Source of the DNA: Meridianimarinicoccus sp. MJW13
GTDB lineage: Bacteria; Pseudomonadota; Alphaproteobacteria; Rhodobacterales; Rhodobacteraceae
DNA: 64,000 bases
Assembly: GCF_014901205.1 (NCBI RefSeq)
Contig: NZ_JACNMU010000003.1
Coordinates: 248,001 to 312,000 of the forward strand
Direction: 5' to 3'
In this document: positions 23,880 through 35,932 of the stretch, piece by piece
Numbering within the stretch: the first letter of the stretch is position 1
Layout: each line of letters opens with the position of its first letter
Notes under the pieces: model-generated
What the model was told of the DNA's origin: nothing
What the model saw: only the letters and a program-made list of their open reading frames with translations
Database searches by the model: none
Made by a program: the position numbers and the translations under genes

Positions 23880-24536
23880 TCAGGCCCTCCGGATCAGAGT
23901 GGAGAAGAAAGCGGCCAGCCGAACGAGCCAGCCGGTCGGCGCGTCGGGCGCAGGATCGAGGACCGGCAGCGTCGGCGACGGCCCGCGAGCCAAGGCCAGA
24001 GCCTCATCCTCGGTCAGGCGACGGATCGGCCGCGAGAAGTCCACGCGCCCCGTGCGGTCCACGGACCAGACCGGGATCGTGCCGCCGGGATAGCGGCCAT
24101 GTCGGAACAGGTCGCGCTCGGCTTCCCGGCGCGGGATGATCGAGGCCGGTCGCCGCCAGTTCTGAAACGCGTCGGCGGCTGCAACGCGATTGCCGGCATT
24201 GAGGTGCCGGGTCAGTGCAGCCTTGGCGATGCCGCCGGTGTTGTAGTGGAAGCTGACCAGTGCATCGAACTCATGCGCCGCCAGCGGAACCTTCACGGCG
24301 CGCAGGACGGCAGCCTCGTAGCGCGCAAGATCGGCGCGGAAGATCCGGAACGCTTCTCGGATCCCGGCGTCCAGATCAGCGGGCATGCCTCGCAGCATGC
24401 TGGCCGGATCGGGCGGCCCGGCCGCGGCCGTGTGGCCGATGCCGAAGGTCCAGACCTGTTTCACATCGAGATAGGGTCCGGGCACGATTCCCTCGTGCCG
24501 GACGAGGGCCAGCAGGCCCCGGTCGGTCATGCGCAT
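23880..24536 (-). CDS. GH24 lysozyme-type endolysin
   Basis: A 218-aa muramidase. The catalytic E-(8)-D-(5)-T arrangement of phage lysozymes is visible near the N-terminus: HEG (Glu about 15), YLDV (Asp) and GIGHT (Thr). FHYNTGGIAKAALTRHLN and the downstream RREAERDLF motifs are typical of GH24. The C-terminal GWLVRLAAFFSTLIRRA could be a membrane-associating helix. It degrades peptidoglycan at the end of the lytic cycle. Confidence 0.92.
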   Translation of the reverse strand: MRMTDRGLLALVRHEGIVPGPYLDVKQVWTFGIGHTAAAGPPDPASMLRGMPADLDAGIREAFRIFRADLARYEAAVLRAVKVPLAAHEFDALVSFHYNTGGIAKAALTRHLNAGNRVAAADAFQNWRRPASIIPRREAERDLFRHGRYPGGTIPVWSVDRTGRVDFSRPIRRLTEDEALALARGPSPTLPVLDPAPDAPTGWLVRLAAFFSTLIRRA

Positions 24537-25701: not shown

Positions 25702-28119
25702 TCACATGCCCCTCCGCCCGAGCGAGACCGCCCGAGCGATGTCGGCGGCGACCTGTGTGCGGGACTGCCGGAAGCTCTCGGCGTCACGCGCCATAATGGT
25801 GACGTTGACGCCGCCGCCCGCGCCGTAGCTCTGCGCCTCTTTCCGCGACAGCACGCGTTCCCCGCGTTGCAGGATCGCGGGCACCTCGTCGTGGCGGAGG
25901 CCCGCCATGCCGCCGCCATGCATCCGGGGCGCGGCGGCGAAGGCCATGGCCGGAACCAAGCGCGAGGGGCCGGCCGATCCGACCATCCCGCCCGCATGCA
26001 GGACGTTGGCGATGATCCCGCCCGCACCGGCGAACACGCCCGAAAGAGCATTGGCGATCGGCCCGAGGATAAATCGCCGCGCCGCGAGCTGGGCGAGATC
26101 GGCCAGCAGCGAGGTGACGAGATCGCGGAAGTTCAGCTTGCCGGTCCGAACGAAATCGCCGACCGCGTTCTCGGCCGACTGGAAGGCGCCGACGAGACTC
26201 TGGCCGATGTCGCCGCCGATCTCGCGCGCCTTGCTGGCGTAGTCCGAAAGCGCCGCCGTGACCGCCTGCCAGCCGGTGACGGCAGCCTCGGTCGCGGGTT
26301 CTGCTGCGGCAGCAGCAGCTCCGGCCGCCGCGCCTGCACCGGTCGCGGCGCGGTCGGCATCGCCAAGCGCCGTCTCCAGCCGCTCGGCAGCACCAGTGGC
26401 CTCGGTCAGCGCATCGGCACTGGCCTCGTCGGTGCCGCGCACCGCATCGCGCAGCGCCTGCCAGCTTTCCAGTGGAGCGCGGGCGCCCTCGGCCAGATCG
26501 CGCGCGGCCCCGCGATAGATGTTCGCGGACTCAAGCGCGCGGTTCGCCGCCTCGGTCAGGCCGAGATCGGGCGCGGTGAGCGGATTGTCCTCGAAGGCCC
26601 GGTCGAAGGCCGTCTGAGCTGCGGTGGTCGCCGCCGTCGCCGCGCCCTCGAAGCGGTTCTCAATCTCGCCGAGGTCGAGGTCGGGCACCAGCGAGATGCG
26701 CCGCTCCGACCCGAGGGCTTCCAGCCCCTGGTTGATGCCGCCGATGAAACCGTTGATGCGCGAAACCACGCCGTTCAACATCGCCTCGACGCCGTCGACC
26801 AGGCTGTTGGCCGCCTGGAACGCGAGATCGCCGATGGCGGCGGGCAGCAGGCCCCAGATCGCCTTGATCGCCTCGTAGGCGCCCTCGAAGGTGTTCGCGG
26901 CGGTGTTGCCGAAGCCCACCACGCTCGCTATGGCGCTCTGCATGCCCGATGCGGCGTCGGCCTTGAGGTCGAAGAACATCGCCGTGGCGGCCGCACCCGC
27001 TGCAGCGGCGCCCATCCTGATCCGCTCCCAGACCTCGACCGCGAGGTCCTTCAGCAGCGACATCGCCTCGCCGAACCCACCCGCGCCGGAGACCAAGCGG
27101 GTGAACTGATAGACGAGCTCGCCCGCGCCGACGATCAGCGCCCCAATGCCGGTACGGATCAGCGCGCCGCGCAGCACAACAAGCGCTGTGGCGAGACCAC
27201 GGACGGAGAGCGCTGCAGCCACCATGCCGGCGACCCAGCGTCCCGCAAGGAAGGCCGCGAAGGTGGCGGCATAGGTGGTCAGGCGGCCGATGTTGTCGAA
27301 GAGACCGCGGATCGCGATGCCCAGCGGGCCGGTGCGGCTGGCGACCGCCGCCATGGCGTCGGCGACGGTCTCCAGCGCCGGAGCCGCCGCGACCGCGAGC
27401 TGGTTCGACAGCCCGCGCCAGATTAGCCCGAGCCGGGAGATGGCATCGTTCGTGCGCTCGATCTGGTCGGCATCCTGCTCGGATACGACGACACCGAAAG
27501 CGAGCACGTCCTCGGTCGCCTGGCGCAGCGTCGCGGTGTCGATCCGCGACATCGCGATGGAGCCTTCCTCGCCGAAGAGCTGGCCCGCGACCGCCGCGCG
27601 TTCGGCGGCAGGCACGAAGCTCTCGATCGCCGCGTTGATTGCGCCGACGCGCTGGTCCAGCGGCAAGGCGATCAGGTCAGTGGCGGACAGCCCCAGCCTG
27701 TCGAGCGCGTCGGCGGCGGGGCCGGTCCCTGCGGCTGCCTGGCTCAGACGGCGCGTCAGATCCTTCGTGGCCTGCTCGATGCCGGACATGGACACGCCCG
27801 CCAGCTCGCCCGCACGCTCCAGCGTCTGGATCGAGGCGACGGTGGTCCCGAGGGATTGCGCGAGCTTGGCCTGCGCATCGACCGTCTGCAGGCCGGAGCG
27901 GACCATCGCCACGCCAGCGGCTGCTGCGGCTGCCACGGCGGCGGCCGCCGCGACCCGGACCCGCCGCGAGAAGGCCGCAAGGCGCGCGTTCGCCGCCTCC
28001 ATCTCGCGGCTGAGCCGTCCGAAGCCGCGCGATCCGGCTTCGCCCACGCCTTCCAGTTCGGCGCGCACCTGCCGTCCGCCCACGGCTGCGAGGCGGACGC
28101 TAACCCGTTTTTCCGCCAT
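25702..28119 (-). CDS. Tail tape measure protein
   Basis: An 805-aa, Ala-rich, largely helical protein. The N-terminus (KRVSVRLAAVGGRQVRAELEGVGEAG) and the following TMP-type core (VDAQAKLAQSLGTTVASIQTLERAGELAGVSMSGIEQ) match tape measure proteins of small-tailed siphophages. Hydrophobic segments around 260-330 and 360-400 fit its role in membrane passage of DNA. It follows the frameshifted chaperone gene, the expected order. Length predicts a tail on the order of 120 nm by the usual 0.15 nm per residue rule. Confidence 0.92.
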   Translation of the reverse strand: MAEKRVSVRLAAVGGRQVRAELEGVGEAGSRGFGRLSREMEAANARLAAFSRRVRVAAAAAVAAAAAAGVAMVRSGLQTVDAQAKLAQSLGTTVASIQTLERAGELAGVSMSGIEQATKDLTRRLSQAAAGTGPAADALDRLGLSATDLIALPLDQRVGAINAAIESFVPAAERAAVAGQLFGEEGSIAMSRIDTATLRQATEDVLAFGVVVSEQDADQIERTNDAISRLGLIWRGLSNQLAVAAAPALETVADAMAAVASRTGPLGIAIRGLFDNIGRLTTYAATFAAFLAGRWVAGMVAAALSVRGLATALVVLRGALIRTGIGALIVGAGELVYQFTRLVSGAGGFGEAMSLLKDLAVEVWERIRMGAAAAGAAATAMFFDLKADAASGMQSAIASVVGFGNTAANTFEGAYEAIKAIWGLLPAAIGDLAFQAANSLVDGVEAMLNGVVSRINGFIGGINQGLEALGSERRISLVPDLDLGEIENRFEGAATAATTAAQTAFDRAFEDNPLTAPDLGLTEAANRALESANIYRGAARDLAEGARAPLESWQALRDAVRGTDEASADALTEATGAAERLETALGDADRAATGAGAAAGAAAAAAEPATEAAVTGWQAVTAALSDYASKAREIGGDIGQSLVGAFQSAENAVGDFVRTGKLNFRDLVTSLLADLAQLAARRFILGPIANALSGVFAGAGGIIANVLHAGGMVGSAGPSRLVPAMAFAAAPRMHGGGMAGLRHDEVPAILQRGERVLSRKEAQSYGAGGGVNVTIMARDAESFRQSRTQVAADIARAVSLGRRGM

Positions 28120-28450
28120 GGGAGTGATCCATCTGTTCGTTGAGTTTGGTGACCATCACCGCTTCGATAACAGGCAGCAGTTCGGCCATGGCGAGCGGCG
28201 GCACGCCGAGGGCGTCACCGAGCGCCAGTGCCGCCGACATGTCCCAGCCGATCACCGTGCCGGGCAGCACACGCAGCTGGCCTCCGAGGCGGCCGACCAG
28301 GTCCCAGACCTGCCAACCCTCCGGTGTATCCGGACGGTTCAGCCGCGCCGGGCAATCCGGGCAGGCTTGCTCGCGGCCCTCGTAGGGTGCGCAGGCTTGG
28401 CAGTAGCGTTCGCCCCCGCCGAAGGACCATTCGGCGAGAGCGCGGAGGCG
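28100..28450 (-). CDS. Tail assembly chaperone, -1 frame extension (gpGT-like)
   Basis: Open -1 frame of 116 codons after the slippery site, ending at a TAG at 28100-28102 that overlaps the tape-measure start. It encodes RLRALAEWSFGGGERYCQ, a CxxC-x9-CxxC zinc-ribbon-like motif, GWQVWDLVGRLGGQLRVLPG and a helical end (AELLPVIEAVMVTKLNEQM). There is no good independent start near its beginning. The expected fusion is about 231 aa (115 + 116). It parallels lambda gpGT, which recruits tape measure and tail tube. Confidence 0.75.
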   Translation of the reverse strand, partial: RLRALAEWSFGGGERYCQACAPYEGREQACPDCPARLNRPDTPEGWQVWDLVGRLGGQLRVLPGTVIGWDMSAALALGDALGVPPLAMAELLPVIEAVMVTKLNEQMDHSHGGKTG

Positions 28451-28794
28451 TTTTTTTCCTGTTCCAGCAGCAGGCCCTTCGAGACGAAGGTCAGCTGGAA
28501 GGCCTCGAAGATCGGCCAGACATCGAGCAGCGCGTCGATGGCCTCGGGGCTCGGATCGATGGGGTTGCCGTCGGCGTCGCCGATGCCGTCCCAGGCGAGC
28601 ACGGCGCGGCGGGCCAGCGCCTTGGCGAAGGCCACCGCGCGTTCCTCGTCGGAGGCGTCCTCGGGCACGGCCTCCACGGCCGGGTCGCTGCGCGTTGACA
28701 CCATCAGCGCCGTGGTCAGCGGGCGGAGCTGCACCCGCACGCCGGGTGCCAGGTCGAGCCAGCGCGGTTCATTCGTCAGGTCGAGCGTCAGCAT
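28339..28794 (-). CDS. Tail assembly chaperone, 0-frame product
   Basis: A 151-aa protein encoded between the tail tube and tape measure genes, the position of lambda gpG. The N-terminal about 115 residues (LTLDLTNEPRWLDLAPGVRVQLRPL..., FQLTFVSKGLLLEQE) form the body. At codons 114-115 the sequence A AAA AAC (28456-28450) is a canonical slippery heptamer in phase. Ribosomes that do not shift continue to 28339, giving a Ser/Ala/Lys-rich tail. Start at 28794 has GAGG upstream, overlapping the tail-tube stop region. Confidence 0.85.
   Translation of the reverse strand: MLTLDLTNEPRWLDLAPGVRVQLRPLTTALMVSTRSDPAVEAVPEDASDEERAVAFAKALARRAVLAWDGIGDADGNPIDPSPEAIDALLDVWPIFEAFQLTFVSKGLLLEQEKNASALSPNGPSAGANATAKPAHPTRAASKPARIARRG
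28450..28456 (-). promoter_or_regulatory. A-AAA-AAC programmed -1 frameshift site
   Basis: Seven A's followed by C on the minus strand place the heptamer A|AAA|AAC exactly in the 0-frame phase (GAA AAA AAC). Slippage by -1 joins the 0-frame chaperone to the 116-codon open frame downstream. This is among the most efficient slippery sequences known in bacteria. Confidence 0.8.
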
Positions 28795-28796
28795 CC

Positions 28797-29738
28797 TCAA
28801 TAAACCTCTATGTCGTTGATCAGGGTTGCGGTGCACATCCGGCCGACGACGCTGTCCCGCGCGGCCTGCCAGTCGAAAGTGGCCTGAACGCCCTGCGGCC
28901 CGGAAATCTCGATGCGCGGGCGCGGCAGGTAGACGGCGTGCACCGTGAAGGTGAAGCTCTCGCCCGAGGGCAGGACATAGGCGAATTCCATCTCGCAAGC
29001 CTCGCCATTGATCGCTTGGCTTACCAGCGTCTGGTCGGCGAAGCGGACCTCGATCCGACCGGTCAGCGCCGCGATGGACGGGTCGGCCCCGTCGATGCGG
29101 CCGTCCGAGCGGATGGTCTCGATCCGGTCGAGGTTGTTGGCGTAGGTGATCTCGGCCGAGACGACGTTGCCGAGCGCCGTGCCATTTCGGCTGATCGCCC
29201 CGTTAAAGTGCCCGAAGCGCTTCAGCTCCAGCGCGACAGGCGTCCCCGCGCTGGTCGTCGTCCCCACGGTCTCGCCCTGCGCCACCAGCCGAGCTGTGGC
29301 GGTCAGGAGCCCCGAGCGCTGCATCTGCCAGGTGATCTGGTCGAGGACGCAGCCGGAATACATCGCATAGCGGGGCACCTCCGGCATGCCGGTCTCGATC
29401 GACATGCTGGGCAGCGTCCAGGACCCCGACTGGAACTCGTGGGTGTAGGGCGCTTCTGCTCCCGTGGTCGTGGGCGTGCCGAAGGCCGCCTTCAGCCAGA
29501 AACCGAAGGCTTCGGCGTCGAGCGGCACCACGACATCGCCGTCCGCCGTCACCGCGTCCTTGATCGGCGCCAGCGGATCGCGGCCGTAGCCAAGGAGTTC
29601 AGAGTTCAGCAGCGGCTGCTCCGCACCGAGCGAGGTGCTGGCGAAGGGCATGCGGGTGAAGCCGCTGGCGGGCGGCGTTCCGTAGGTCGTCTCGAACGCA
29701 AGCGCCATCAGCGCCCGCGCCCCCTGGGCTCGTGCCAT
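28797..29738 (-). CDS. Major tail tube protein
   Basis: A 313-aa protein resembling the phage tail tube family: N-terminal ALMALAFETTYGTPP, FGFWLKAAFGTPTTTG, and the repeated strand motifs typical of tube proteins (EITYANNLDRIETIRSDGRIDGAD). The C-terminal about 80 residues look like an added Ig-type domain (EISGPQGVQATFDWQAA). It polymerises to form the tail tube. It is upstream of the frameshifted chaperone gene with only 2 bases between stop and start. Confidence 0.85.
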   Translation of the reverse strand: MARAQGARALMALAFETTYGTPPASGFTRMPFASTSLGAEQPLLNSELLGYGRDPLAPIKDAVTADGDVVVPLDAEAFGFWLKAAFGTPTTTGAEAPYTHEFQSGSWTLPSMSIETGMPEVPRYAMYSGCVLDQITWQMQRSGLLTATARLVAQGETVGTTTSAGTPVALELKRFGHFNGAISRNGTALGNVVSAEITYANNLDRIETIRSDGRIDGADPSIAALTGRIEVRFADQTLVSQAINGEACEMEFAYVLPSGESFTFTVHAVYLPRPRIEISGPQGVQATFDWQAARDSVVGRMCTATLINDIEVY

Positions 29739-30203: not shown

Positions 30204-30583
30204 CGGACATCAGACCACCGCGACATGAACGCGGCGCACAGCTGTGCATTCTATCGGCGGGATCTGTAGAACCTGGCCTTGCACAGATGCACTCGTTAGC
30301 GCTGTTGGTTTTCCCGTACGACGAGTCCCGCGCCAGTGGATCGCCTGCGGTGGCCTGGCGAAGTGCAGCCGCATCTGGATGAAGCCGCCGCGATTCGCGG
30401 TGCCGATGCGGCCGGTCACAGGTGGCTGGTAGCGGCGCCTTGCTCGGAACGGGCGGTCGCGAGGGCGTTCAGGTGGTACTGGAGGCCGTCGTATTCACCC
30501 ACTCGCTTATTTCCACCGCAAGCCGGGTAGACATGCTAGAATACAATTCTTGGCGCATCTTGTCCGCGCCTTTGGATATCATC
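30204..30583. other. Junction region upstream of the methyltransferase cargo gene
   Basis: About 380 bases between the tail completion gene and the plus-strand methyltransferase. On the minus strand a 69-codon frame (30210-30419, starting GTG) reads without homology I recognise and could be a remnant of a displaced phage gene. No transposase, terminal inverted repeat or target duplication was seen. Confidence 0.4.
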
Positions 30584-31396
30584 ATGTCAACGACCGACGT
30601 CCTGTTTTCGGGTGCCATCCCGGAAACATACGATACTTTCCTCGTCCCCCTGATCTTCCAGCCATACGCCGACGATCTTGCCGGGCGTGTCGCGGCCCGC
30701 GCTCCCGAGGATATTCTGGAAACTGCGGCCGGGACTGGGGTTGTCACGCGGACGCTTGCGCCGCTGCTCGCCACGACTGCCCGCTACATCGCGACAGACC
30801 TCAATCAGGCGATGATCGACTATGCGCAGACGCGCCAGCCAAATGACGGGCGCATCCGATGGGCGCAAGCCGATGCGCTTGCGCTTCCGGTGGGCGATGC
30901 CAGCGTCGATGTCGTCCTCTGCCAGTTCGGCGTCATGTTCTTTCCGGATCGTGTCGCCGGCTTTGCAGAGGCGCATCGCGTGCTTCGTCCGGGCGGTGCG
31001 CTGATCTTCAGCGTGTGGGATGTGCTGGAAGCGAACGAGATCGCAGCCACCGTGGTTCAGGCGGTGGCGGAGGCATTCCCGGAAGATCCGCCCAAGTTCT
31101 TCTCGCGGACACCTCATGGTTACCACGACATCGCCGTCATCCGCGAAGACCTCCTCAAGGCTGGCTTTGACGATGTCACAATCGAGACCCTCGACAAACG
31201 AAGCGACGCCCTGTCCCCGCAAGGCCCCGCAATCGGCATCTGCAAGGGCACGCCGTTGCGCGGCGAAATCGAAGCCCGCGACGCAGGGCGCCTCGATGCT
31301 GTGGTCGATAGCGCAGCCGAAGCTGTCGCAAGAAAGTTCGGCTCTGGCGCCGCGTCCGGGCGCATTCGGGCTCACGTCGTGACGGCCATCCACTGA
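30584..31396 (+). CDS. Class I SAM-dependent methyltransferase (cargo gene)
   Basis: A 270-aa methyltransferase of the UbiE/type-11 kind. The AdoMet motif is LETAAGTGVVT (about residues 45-55), motif II IATDLNQAMIDYAQ, then IRWAQADALALPVGDASVDVVLCQFG and FAEAHRVLRPGGALIFSVWD, all typical. Small-molecule substrate is likely. It runs against the flanking phage structural genes and has no phage homologue function, so it is cargo. An in-frame ATG at 30533 would add 17 residues; neither start has a strong ribosome site. Confidence 0.88.
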   Translation: MSTTDVLFSGAIPETYDTFLVPLIFQPYADDLAGRVAARAPEDILETAAGTGVVTRTLAPLLATTARYIATDLNQAMIDYAQTRQPNDGRIRWAQADALALPVGDASVDVVLCQFGVMFFPDRVAGFAEAHRVLRPGGALIFSVWDVLEANEIAATVVQAVAEAFPEDPPKFFSRTPHGYHDIAVIREDLLKAGFDDVTIETLDKRSDALSPQGPAIGICKGTPLRGEIEARDAGRLDAVVDSAAEAVARKFGSGAASGRIRAHVVTAIH

Positions 31397-31557
31397 GCGG
31401 TTCGCGCGCCTGACAATGTGAAGGATCGTCGGCGTGTAGACTTGTCGCGCATAACGTCGGCGCGTCTCCCGACTGCGAATGTTCGTGGCCCTGCTGCCCA
31501 TTCCTGATGCTCTCACGTCTCACAAGGTCGGAAGGCCTTCCTCGAAAGCCCAAGCAA

Positions 31558-32493
31558 ATGATGAAAGTTGCCGTCGTCCAGGAACCACCCGTCTATCTGA
31601 ACCTGAATGCGTCGATGGAACGCGCGGTCGACCTGATCGCGCAAGCCGCGCCCAAAGGCGCGCGCCTTGTCGTCTTTCCCGAGACCTGGCTTCCCGGATA
31701 TCCGACGTTCGTCTGGCGACTTGCGCCCGGCGCGGGCATGGCCAAGACGGATGCGCTTTACGCCCTCTCGCAGTCCAATTCAGTGGATCGCAGCAGAAAT
31801 GGGCTCGCTCCCCTGCAAGAGGCAGCAAGGGAGCATGGGGTCGTCGTCGTCGTCGGTTATCAGGAAATTGACGGCGCGGTCAGCGGCAGCACCCTGTTCA
31901 ACAGCTGTGCGATCATCGACGCAGACGGCCGCATCGTGAACAATCACCGAAAGCTGATGCCCACCAACCCCGAACGCATGATCTGGGGCTTCGGAGATGG
32001 GTCAGGCTTGAACGTTGTCGAAACAGCGGTCGGACGTGTGGGAACCCTTATCTGCTGGGAAAACTACATGCCGCTCGCACGCTATGCCCTCTATGCCCAG
32101 AACATCGAAATCTACGTGGCGCCGACTTGGGACAGCGGGGACACGTGGCTGGCAACGATGCAGCACATCGCGCGCGAAGGCGGATGCTGGGTGATCGGGT
32201 GTGCCACGGCGCTGGAAGCGGCGGACATTCCCGATGACATCCCGTATCGCGACGAGTTGTTCCCGAACAAGGACGAATGGGTGAACCAGGGCGACGCCGT
32301 TGTCTACGCCCCGTTTGGCGGCATAGTCGCGGGGCCGATGCGCAAGGAGAAAGGCATCCTCTTTGCCGAGATCGACATCGCCAATGCGAGGGCATCCCGC
32401 CGCAAGTTCGATGCGAGCGGTCACTATGCTCGACCGGATGTCTTCTCGCTGCATGTGAACCGCGAAGTACAGGTTCCCGCACTCTTCACCTGA
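31558..32493 (+). CDS. Nitrilase-family carbon-nitrogen hydrolase (cargo gene)
   Basis: A 311-aa member of the aliphatic nitrilase branch. The Glu-Lys-Cys triad is visible: FPETWLPGYP (Glu about 42), NNHRKLMPT (Lys about 132) and LICWENYMPLARYALY (Cys about 166), the last being the nitrilase/cyanide hydratase signature. It converts nitriles to acids plus ammonia, or cyanide to formamide or formate. It follows the methyltransferase by about 160 bases on the same strand and ends 20 bases from the convergent DUF6441 gene. Start at 31558 (or the next codon, 31561) chosen because the family begins KVAVVQ. Confidence 0.92.
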   Translation: MMKVAVVQEPPVYLNLNASMERAVDLIAQAAPKGARLVVFPETWLPGYPTFVWRLAPGAGMAKTDALYALSQSNSVDRSRNGLAPLQEAAREHGVVVVVGYQEIDGAVSGSTLFNSCAIIDADGRIVNNHRKLMPTNPERMIWGFGDGSGLNVVETAVGRVGTLICWENYMPLARYALYAQNIEIYVAPTWDSGDTWLATMQHIAREGGCWVIGCATALEAADIPDDIPYRDELFPNKDEWVNQGDAVVYAPFGGIVAGPMRKEKGILFAEIDIANARASRRKFDASGHYARPDVFSLHVNREVQVPALFT

Positions 32494-33874: not shown

Positions 33875-35932
33875 TTACGCGCCCGGGTTCTTGTAGAGAC
33901 CGCGCCAGTCGATCGCCTTGGCGCCGAAGTCGAGGCGGCACTTGATCTCGACGCCATCGACGTCGAAGCCGTTGCGCGTCTCGATGTAGGCGCCCTGCTG
34001 GCCCTCGAGATAGGCGTACTCGATGGTGTCGATCTGGTTCGGGCTGGCCGCCAGGTACCAGGCGGTCTCGCTGGCGGCGTCGAGCCGCGGCTCGCTGATC
34101 GGCGCGAGCGTGCGGATCGACTGCGGCACCACGCTGGAGGTCGCGGCGGGCACGAGGTTCTGGGCAACCAGCTGCTCGGCCTTCAGTTCCAGCGATGCGG
34201 GCACGATCAGGAAAGCGGGGCGGACGTTCAACACCGTCTTCTTGTCGAGCCCCGTCTGCTTGGCCATCGCCGCGCGGGCCGCACCCACGCTGCTCACGTC
34301 GAGCGCCGCGCCGGTGCCCGCGAGGTTCTTGTGCGTGGTGTGGAACAGCGCGTTGCCGTCGGCCATGGCCGGGTTGGCGGTGATGATGCCCCAGACCACG
34401 TCCGACTCCAGCTGGGCGATGGAATTGCCGTACATCGCCGGGATCCGGGTGAAGGCGTCGAGATCGTCGTTGATCAGTGTCTGGCGGGTGATCGCAACCA
34501 CCCGGCCATAGGTCTTGACCTTGTAGCTCTCCTTGCTCTCGCCGAGCGTCCCGCGCTTGAACTCGCCGCTCTCGCCCACCTCCAGCAGTTGCGGCGCTTC
34601 GCCGAGCTGCACCCGATGCATCGCCTTGAAGTCGGTGGCGAGCACCTGGCGGCAGAACAGCATGAAGGTGCGGGGATAGGCCTCATAGGCCTGGCGCAGG
34701 GTCTTGTTGGTGACCGCCGAGAGGATCTCGGGGAAGTCCGAAGTCGAATGCAGGGCCCGCGTCGCCACCTCGTCGCGCGAGAGGCCGCGCGTGTTGACGC
34801 CGGCATTGCCGAGGCTTTCGCGGGCAAGCTCCAGAAGGGTCATGCCGCGATACTGGCGCGCGGCGTCCTCCAGCTGGAACAGCGTCGGGCTGTAGCGGTG
34901 CAGGAGCGCGTTCGCCACAGCATCGCGGCGGGTGATCCGCTCGTCCCGGCCGCCGAGGGGGACGGAGACATGCGGGAAAGTCCGGGTCTCGTCCGACTTC
35001 GCGGCGACCTGGTCGAGGATCAGGCGGCGGGACTCGTCGACGCTGACGCCGCGCTTCACCAGGTCCTCGGCGAAGCCGCGTTCCAGGTTCAGCCGCCCGG
35101 CCAGATCGTAGATGGTGGAGACGCGATCGCGCTCGGCTTCGCGGGCGCGGGTGGCGACCGCCTCGGTGTCGGGCGCGGGAGTTGCCTGCGGCTTCGGCTG
35201 GCTGCGCGTCTCGCTGGCCGCGACCTTCGGGTCGGGCGCAGCCGGTTTGGGCTCGGTCATGGTGGTGTCCTCGGTTTCGACCGGCTCGGTCAGCTGGGTG
35301 GTGGCGGGGGTCGCGGCGTCGAGCGCCGGGGTTTCGGTCTTGTCCGTCATCGGGATCGGTCCTTTCGTGGTGGAAGGGGCGTCCCGGCGGTGGAGGACGC
35401 AGTCGTGAAGGGGATGCTGGGCGCGGAAGCCCGCAGCGGGATCGGCGCCGACCGCGACGGCGGAGACCTCGAAGGGGGTCCAGTCGACCGCGCGCCAGAG
35501 TTCGCGGGCGGCCTCGGGTTTCGAGACCTCGAAGCGGTGGACCTGGTAGCCGATGGAGACCGCCCGGATGTGTCCGGCCTGGATGTCACGCCAGATCGGC
35601 TCGACATCGGCACGCTCGCTGATCCGCACCAAGGCGATGCCCCGGCCGTTCTCGATCCGGGCCGAGCCCGGAACGACCGAGCCGATCACAGCATCGAGCG
35701 TGTCGAGCTCGTGCACCTTCAGGAACGGCGCGCCCGCGTTCAGCCGGTCGAGCCGGACATGGGCGGGGTCGAGGCTCAGTTCCTCGTCATAGGGCTCGCC
35801 GAAGAAGGTGGCGCGGCGGACGCGGGCCCCGGCCGACCAGACCACCTCTACGGTGCGGCTGTCGGCATCGGCCGTGTTCGGCGCAAGCTCCGCCGACCGG
35901 CGCATGGCCGGCAGTTCGATCATCGTGTCCAT
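33875..35932 (-). CDS. Prohead protease/major capsid protein fusion
   Basis: A 685-aa polyprotein. The N-terminal about 190 residues are the maturation protease: VHELDTLDAVIGSVVPGS supplies a conserved His, and the RAVSIGYQVHRFEV segment is typical. A Pro/Thr/Glu-rich delta/scaffold-like linker follows (about 195-270), then the HK97-fold capsid domain (about 290-685; DFPEILSAVTNKTLRQAYE, GRVVAITRQTLINDDLDAF, VPQSIRTLAPISEPRL). Cleavage must release the capsid protein. Such natural fusions are known in alphaproteobacterial phages. Confidence 0.92.
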   Translation of the reverse strand: MDTMIELPAMRRSAELAPNTADADSRTVEVVWSAGARVRRATFFGEPYDEELSLDPAHVRLDRLNAGAPFLKVHELDTLDAVIGSVVPGSARIENGRGIALVRISERADVEPIWRDIQAGHIRAVSIGYQVHRFEVSKPEAARELWRAVDWTPFEVSAVAVGADPAAGFRAQHPLHDCVLHRRDAPSTTKGPIPMTDKTETPALDAATPATTQLTEPVETEDTTMTEPKPAAPDPKVAASETRSQPKPQATPAPDTEAVATRAREAERDRVSTIYDLAGRLNLERGFAEDLVKRGVSVDESRRLILDQVAAKSDETRTFPHVSVPLGGRDERITRRDAVANALLHRYSPTLFQLEDAARQYRGMTLLELARESLGNAGVNTRGLSRDEVATRALHSTSDFPEILSAVTNKTLRQAYEAYPRTFMLFCRQVLATDFKAMHRVQLGEAPQLLEVGESGEFKRGTLGESKESYKVKTYGRVVAITRQTLINDDLDAFTRIPAMYGNSIAQLESDVVWGIITANPAMADGNALFHTTHKNLAGTGAALDVSSVGAARAAMAKQTGLDKKTVLNVRPAFLIVPASLELKAEQLVAQNLVPAATSSVVPQSIRTLAPISEPRLDAASETAWYLAASPNQIDTIEYAYLEGQQGAYIETRNGFDVDGVEIKCRLDFGAKAIDWRGLYKNPGA

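Follow-up and report, generated by a model that had tools for sequence, protein, structure and literature searches.

Programmed frameshifting in the tail assembly chaperones of phages is already textbook knowledge, as sections of one published account make plain (PMC5009743). In phage lambda, according to those sections, many copies of the G protein bind to the tape measure protein, T is the part that binds the tail tube protein, and a 30:1 molar ratio is crucial. Here we describe a gene that very probably encodes a tail assembly chaperone of this G/GT type, made with a programmed -1 frameshift, in a prophage with a tail tip resembling that of a gene transfer agent (GTA). The gene is located on the minus strand of a 64,000-nucleotide (nt) stretch of DNA from Meridianimarinicoccus sp. 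MJW13 (contig NZ_JACNMU010000003.1, positions 248,001-312,000). This whole stretch is called the window below, and all coordinates refer to it.

The locus has several features in common with the lambda gpG/gpGT genes as these are described in the relevant parts of PMC5009743. The site is flanked by the genes for the tail tube and the tape measure protein, the 0-frame chaperone is small, and -1 slippage, here predicted, falls near the 3' end. As in lambda, the extension overlaps the start of the tape measure gene. The slip site differs, being A AAA AAC here and G GGA AAG in lambda. An earlier note on this DNA, made from its letters, had likened the locus to the lambda system. The likeness stands for the layout and for the existence of a conserved heptamer and frame, but in the sequence of the extension, whose relative is the DUF1799 family, no similarity to lambda T was detected.

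The same -1 domain, 49% identical and with four cysteines, is present in Rhodobacter capsulatus phages of the RcC cluster (RcFrancesLouise, RcKai, and others). The slip site of these phages is G GGA AAC, and in both of the records examined, of eleven matches, the fusion has been deposited as a joined coding sequence (CDS). The Rhodobacter phage genome paper describes frameshifting as usual in these genes in the sections that bear on them, and the word zinc is absent from its main text (PMC8601537). For Acinetobacter phage Loki, the passages on gp12/gp13 propose an AAAAAAC sequence beside the chaperone stop as a frameshift site; these passages mention no zinc motif for the two products, and the zinc ribbon protein of Loki, gp35, is encoded by a separate gene (PMC5313236). 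Literature searches on frameshifting and zinc in connection with tail assembly chaperones or tape measure proteins, and searches by the DUF names and accessions, which occur in one paper, returned neither a four-cysteine T domain, nor DUF7697 as its cut-off half, nor a link to DUF1799.

Conservation of the slip site

The chaperone gene is small, with the tail tube gene upstream and the tape measure gene downstream (Table 1). Its 0 frame runs on the minus strand from an ATG at 28794 to a stop at 28341-28339 and cuts the heptamer into A, AAA, and AAC, which is the classical phase of a -1 heptamer. A total of 115 residues are encoded through AAC, inclusive. Read from 28450, the -1 frame supplies a further 116 residues before a stop at 28102-28100, and the fusion would therefore comprise 115 + 116 = 231 amino acids (aa). 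Both the exact phase of the heptamer between the tube and tape measure genes and the 116-codon open frame with its 231-aa fusion had been claimed in the earlier note, and both were confirmed when the frames were read. The window was scanned for slippery heptamers that stand in phase within open reading frames (ORFs) and have 60 or more codons ahead of them, and A AAA AAC turned up three times. At the other two sites the -1 frames are only 40 and 51 codons long, compared with 116 here.

The -1 product was used as the query for relatives. Viral contigs gave 578 matching stretches and genome contigs 279, two sets that overlap, and the best 80 of the 578 and the best 80 of the 279 were taken into a locus set. 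The same query also matched 13 phage records, four of which were examined, and, among 385 genomes of the class, 14 genomes at a total of 15 places. The locus set numbers 179 with the window included (L001). A tblastn match was obtained for 178 of these, and the one locus that gave none (L012) was left out.

Of the 178 matched loci, 177 have a slippery heptamer at exactly the aligned position (140 of 141 distinct segments), in a set that reaches down to members of 29-39% identity. The heptamers are A AAA AAC in 171 cases, G GGA AAC in four, and A AAA AAA in two. The sole locus that lacks one (L009) is a decayed copy in which both the 0 and -1 frames are broken and a transposase-like gene follows. 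Four scans of viral sequences with divergent queries yielded further loci, and all 36 of them carry a heptamer, which is G GGA AAC in 12.

A phylum-wide profile search gave matches at 28 places in 15 of 398 genomes, at least two of which were already in the earlier set (the window itself, and L246, which is L004). A heptamer was found at 26 of the 28, once as G GGA AAC. The strict search pattern used here demands K or G before K and thus favours heptamers; two of the 26 loci, L258 and L263, missed it and were examined individually, and each has a heptamer. The two places without one are a deletion remnant (L260) and a chance match (L252). Around positions 1374-1749 of L260, tail-tube sequence abuts the DUF7697 core, and the chaperone, the heptamer, and the cysteines are all gone.

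Selection on the slip site and the -1 frame

The codons of the heptamer are AAA and AAC in all 120 distinct near loci, and the codon that precedes them is GAA in all 119 near loci that have Glu at this position. As a background, the upstream part of the same gene uses AAA for 41 of 272 Lys codons and GAA for 244 of 1017 Glu codons. Among 65 conserved columns, seven have an invariant codon, and three of these seven are the GAA, AAA, and AAC of the slip site. A conserved element upstream of the heptamer was considered and is not claimed: CAG and CTG codons are invariant in near loci where the residue is kept, but the divergent loci differ.

In the -1 frame, ratios of nonsynonymous to synonymous change (pN/pS), which are crude pairwise counts, amount to 0.024-0.025 from the 0-frame stop up to codon 60; the DUF7697 part has 0.077-0.080. 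Where the two frames overlap, the -1 frame gives 0.26-0.42, whereas the 0-frame tail gives 0.91-1.22. This pattern indicates that selection acts on the protein encoded in the -1 frame from the slip site onward. By the same measure, the 0 frame is nearly neutral in appearance over its 30 or 36 extra codons. The alignment of homologues, which had been named in advance as a check, thus favours the frameshift on both counts, the heptamer and the protein-level conservation of the frame behind it.

A hairpin downstream from the heptamer

The 46 nt that begin at 28445 fold into a stem of 13 base pairs (bp) with a 6-nt loop (28442-28411; z -3.29). This hairpin is probably a frameshift stimulator, to judge from its folding and its pairing in relatives. 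In 29 of 32 distinct near segments, pairing begins 7 nt behind the heptamer. In all 14 divergent loci a hairpin starts 0-7 nt behind the heptamer, with energies of -13 to -36 kcal/mol that come without a shuffled control. Across 41 aligned sequences, 92.9% of the cells of the stem are paired, and changes on both sides occur in five pairs (seven cells). None of 500 shuffles attains any of the five stem measures, and slid stems pair in at most 57.4% of cells.

When 50-nt windows were folded along 137 loci, the mean-energy minimum of the 640-nt profile fell at the slip site (-25.6 kcal/mol). Besides the 80-nt fold given below, two observations speak against the hairpin. The window at -192 is almost as low, with a mean of -25.1 kcal/mol, and a stem slid by +1 has changes on both sides in six pairs and 11 cells, compared with five and seven in the proposed stem, with only 48% of its cells pairing.

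A four-cysteine domain in the -1 frame

Numbered from the first K, the cysteines C19, C22, C32, and C35 of the extension are invariant in alignments of 22, 36, and 56 members (56 of 56 in the largest). Residues K2, R3, G15, and Y18 are likewise invariant in these three alignments, and L258, which stands outside them, has F for Y. The gap between the last two cysteines ranges from x2 to more than 10 residues, so the family is characterized by a four-cysteine pattern and not by a strict double CxxC. The earlier note had described a CxxC-x9-CxxC that is foreign to the lambda protein; this proved correct, as the T frame of lambda is free of cysteine. The term "zinc-ribbon-like" is a name for the cysteine pattern only, but the segment is probably a zinc site on the strength of its conservation.

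AlphaFold2 gave a confident model of the -1 domain, with a predicted local distance difference test (pLDDT) score of 87.4 and a predicted template modelling (pTM) score of 0.78, with pLDDT values of 71-83 over the cysteine stretch. The best matches of this model among viral structures include entries named "tape measure chaperone" from phages F20, Solomon, and W011D (probability 0.95-0.98, E 0.08-0.39), as well as a nameless structure (probability 1.00, E 0.10). Comparison with the PDB by Foldseek gave nothing convincing, the VIA-align rows were low and mixed, and a search by sequence for solved relatives returned no convincing one. The model of the 0-frame part (pLDDT 85.7) has no significant Foldseek match. 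In VIA-align it pairs with YqbN (3klu, Z 5.5), which we take to be a tail assembly chaperone, with the PICI-like ORF19 (5ir0, Z 4.9), and with the HK97 tail assembly chaperone (2ob9, Z 3.8).

Relationship to DUF7697 and DUF1799

The extension is a member of the Pfam family PF24752 (DUF7697), which it matches at 99.1 bits against a gathering cut-off of 27; among the 56 aligned members, 55 match this profile at E up to 1. The 52 positions of PF24752 begin at extension residue 61, and the 55 positions of phrog_11212 (2.5e-23) align from residue 59, so both families leave out the helix and the cysteines that precede them. Because the start of PF24752 coincides with an internal GTG codon, DUF7697 and phrog_11212 look, from their coordinates, like truncated gene calls of the frameshift extension. 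Two cyanophage records (L098 and L099) annotate a separate ORF in the same frame that begins behind the cysteines. The three matches in plasmid records had no usable annotation for this comparison of gene calls. The expectation of the earlier note that gene callers would report only the 151-aa product and miss the fusion was too sweeping: two Rhodobacter phage records carry the joined CDS, and the C-terminal half already stands in databases as DUF7697.

Profile comparison shows the core of the extension to be a distant homologue of DUF1799 (hhalign probability 95.6, E 1.2e-8), a family that corresponds to phrog_680. The corresponding Pfam profile, PF08809, is matched by 27 of the 56 members at E up to 1, the best at 0.0021, and since the score of the extension is 13 bits against a cut-off of 26, it is not filed as a member of this family. 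A sample of 19 DUF1799 loci (L180-L198, 18 of them distinct) was drawn from 17 of 385 genomes. In each of the 19, KKL or GKL opens the domain, read in the -1 frame of a heptamer, which is A AAA AAC in 17, A AAA AAT in one, and G GGA AAC in one. A 0-frame stop stands immediately behind the heptamer in 16 of the 19 (for example, AAAAAACTGA), so that the same kind of slip site occurs here coupled to a stop. No CxxC was found in any of the 19 loci. Because these relatives lack the cysteines, the cysteine module marks one branch of a wider family.

In two members of the DUF1799 sample, the -1 frame contains short tandem repeats with a high content of Asn, Gln, and Cys, of about QENCL in L183 and QNTC in L188. 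They lie within the variable segment that separates the KKL helix from the core.

The two branches also occur beside different tail tube proteins. The tubes adjacent to four-cysteine loci score 116-210 bits against PF18906 in 10 of 10 cases, whereas those adjacent to DUF1799 loci score 27-81 bits in nine of 10, with one giving no match. This pairing of branch and tube protein is a correlation, drawn from a small number of loci chosen by hand, namely 10 of 11 four-cysteine and 10 of 12 DUF1799 loci.

Genomic context

The positions of the features discussed here are collected in Table 1. Beyond the tape measure gene lies the GTA-like tail tip, which consists of DUF2460, a phiJL001 gp84-like protein, NlpC/P60, and the GTA megatron. 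At 23880-24536 on the minus strand, between the DUF2460 and gp84-like genes, this block also contains a gene for a phage lysozyme (PF00959, 2.4e-23).

Two genes on the opposite (plus) strand are found amid the head-tail block. They encode a methyltransferase (30422-31396; PF08241, 2.1e-21) and a nitrilase-like protein (31507-32493; PF00795, 9e-50), and the pair (30422-32493) has the tail terminator gene on one side and the DUF6441 gene on the other. Both look like cargo within the structural operon. A 685-aa ORF at 33875-35932 on the minus strand carries the capsid domain PF25209 on residues 373-682 only, and its first 370 residues gave no Pfam match. A fusion of capsid and protease has been reported for RcC phages in a section of the genome paper cited above (PMC8601537).

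Table 1. Positions of the chaperone locus and its neighbours in the window
Feature	Positions	Strand	Basis
0-frame tail assembly chaperone ORF (lambda gpG counterpart), 151 aa	28339..28794	-	phrog_313 2.1e-25
Slippery heptamer A AAA AAC, exact 0-frame phase	28450..28456	-	sequence and conservation in relatives
-1 frame extension (T-domain counterpart), 116 codons and stop	28100..28450	-	open frame; pN/pS
Four-cysteine, zinc-ribbon-like segment C-x2-C-x9-C-x2-C, extension residues 17-33	28352..28402	-	alignment of 56 members
DUF7697 segment, extension residues 61-112, first codon GTG 28270	28115..28270	-	PF24752 1.3e-28, profile positions 1-52 of 52
Probable frameshift stimulator: 13-bp stem, 6-nt loop, 7 nt behind heptamer	28411..28442	-	folding, pair counts, 137-locus profile
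Tail tube protein, presumed partner of -1 domain	28797..29738	-	PF18906 Phage_tube_2 5.1e-60
Tape measure protein, presumed partner of 0-frame part, overlaps end of -1 frame	25702..28119	-	PF09718 3.4e-20; phrog_8462 1.2e-217

Proposed mechanism and alternatives

Under the mechanism that we favour, most ribosomes would stay in the 0 frame and produce the 151-aa chaperone. A minority would slip back one base on A AAA AAC, aided by the hairpin 7 nt downstream, and produce the 231-aa fusion. Its -1 domain would consist of a KKR-led helix, the probable zinc site formed by the four cysteines, and a core of the DUF7697/DUF1799 type. By analogy with lambda, from which the assignment of tube binding is taken, the -1 domain may bring tail tube subunits, and the N-terminal part shared by both products may bind the tape measure protein. 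The rate of slippage would then set the ratio of short to long product, as in lambda. For a chaperone of this type, slippage would be expected at a low level, and neither product would be expected in the virion.

An alternative in which no frameshift is needed is that the frame behind the heptamer forms a gene of its own, which starts internally at GTG 28270 and makes the DUF7697 segment only, with the heptamer incidental. This GTG, at codon 61, is the first start codon of the -1 frame and, with a GGAGG sequence 10 nt upstream, could pass as a start. DUF7697 and phrog_11212 both begin within two residues of it, and the two cyanophage records mentioned above annotate a separate downstream ORF. 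However, neither the codon nor the Shine-Dalgarno sequence is conserved. The position is GTG in just 58 of 119 sequences and GTC in 49, and the Gly codon needed for GGAGG is GGA in 10 of 119, compared with 69 of 1381 other Gly codons (four further sequences that did not fit the search pattern were left out of the start-codon count). The 60 codons ahead of the GTG are, moreover, conserved as protein in the -1 frame. In the window, ATG, GTG, and TTG are absent from the upstream stop of this frame to codon 60, and 154 of 177 loci have none of the three ahead of the first cysteine. Given the variable GTG and the start-free loci, internal initiation does not appear to be under selection and was rejected, and we regard a separate gene as extremely unlikely. 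The -1 frame would instead be translated as an extension of the 0 frame. The statement in the earlier note that this frame has no good start of its own thus holds for the cysteine part but not for the remainder, where a plausible, unconserved start exists. The same note had named homologues with an unconserved heptamer and a self-starting downstream frame as the evidence that would speak against it, and the alignments gave the opposite on both points.

A fusion could also be produced by transcriptional slippage on the A7 run at 28457-28451 rather than by ribosomal frameshifting. RNA polymerase can slip on runs of seven A, and the window has seven consecutive A. The relatives with G GGA AAC (4 + 12 + 1 loci) lack such a run, however, and the exact phase, the 7-nt spacer, and the hairpin fit tandem slippage by the ribosome. 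Given the G GGA AAC relatives, slippage by the polymerase is disfavoured and seems very unlikely. It is also conceivable that the frameshifting is real and that the four cysteines do not bind zinc but serve a redox function, a disulfide, another metal, or structure alone. The varied spacing of the last two cysteines is in keeping with such a role, and all curated zinc families score below their gathering cut-offs for the extension (Zn_ribbon_6 14.1 against 25 bits, zf-UDP 12.2 against 27.1 bits). Yet four invariant cysteines with a first CxxC are the usual sign of structural zinc in a cytoplasmic assembly factor, as this protein presumably is, and 10 of the 56 members match Zn_ribbon_6 weakly at E up to 1. 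A function for the cysteines other than zinc binding is accordingly judged unlikely.

Besides the scores of the zinc families, several further points weigh against the interpretation of this locus as a zinc-binding chaperone of the G/GT type. Many of the loci are closely related, and therefore the heptamer counts are not counts of independent events. In Escherichia coli, according to part of PMC5009743, A AAA AAC slips less than A AAA AAG. Folding of the downstream mRNA, which had been proposed as a check, favours the frameshift over 46 nt as given above, but the fold of an 80-nt stretch falls short of significance (z -0.99). One group of relatives has a weak hairpin or one that begins 11 nt downstream. 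None of the viral structural matches to the -1 domain reaches E 0.001, all being at E 0.08 or above, and the comparison of the extension with a single lambda T sequence gave an hhalign probability of 1.6. G and T are known to diverge, and likeness to lambda T is not a defining trait of this type of chaperone.

Implications

One more specific proposal, which we put forward tentatively and consider doubtful, is that the four-cysteine module is a zinc-dependent adaptor for one subfamily of tail tube proteins. The metal site would replace the variable segment of DUF1799 and grip the tube subunit. Because the site would hold the tube, tail assembly would depend on zinc in the phages that carry this branch.

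If the frameshift interpretation is true, two families of unknown function are explained. DUF7697 would be a fragment created by gene calling, and DUF1799 would be a cysteine-free relative with the same arrangement. The resulting correction of annotations would touch many records, as the 578 viral and 279 genome stretches of the two overlapping sets encode a relative. The T domain is the least understood half of the lambda-type chaperone, and the loci described here would provide a tractable and well-conserved form of it with a probable metal site.

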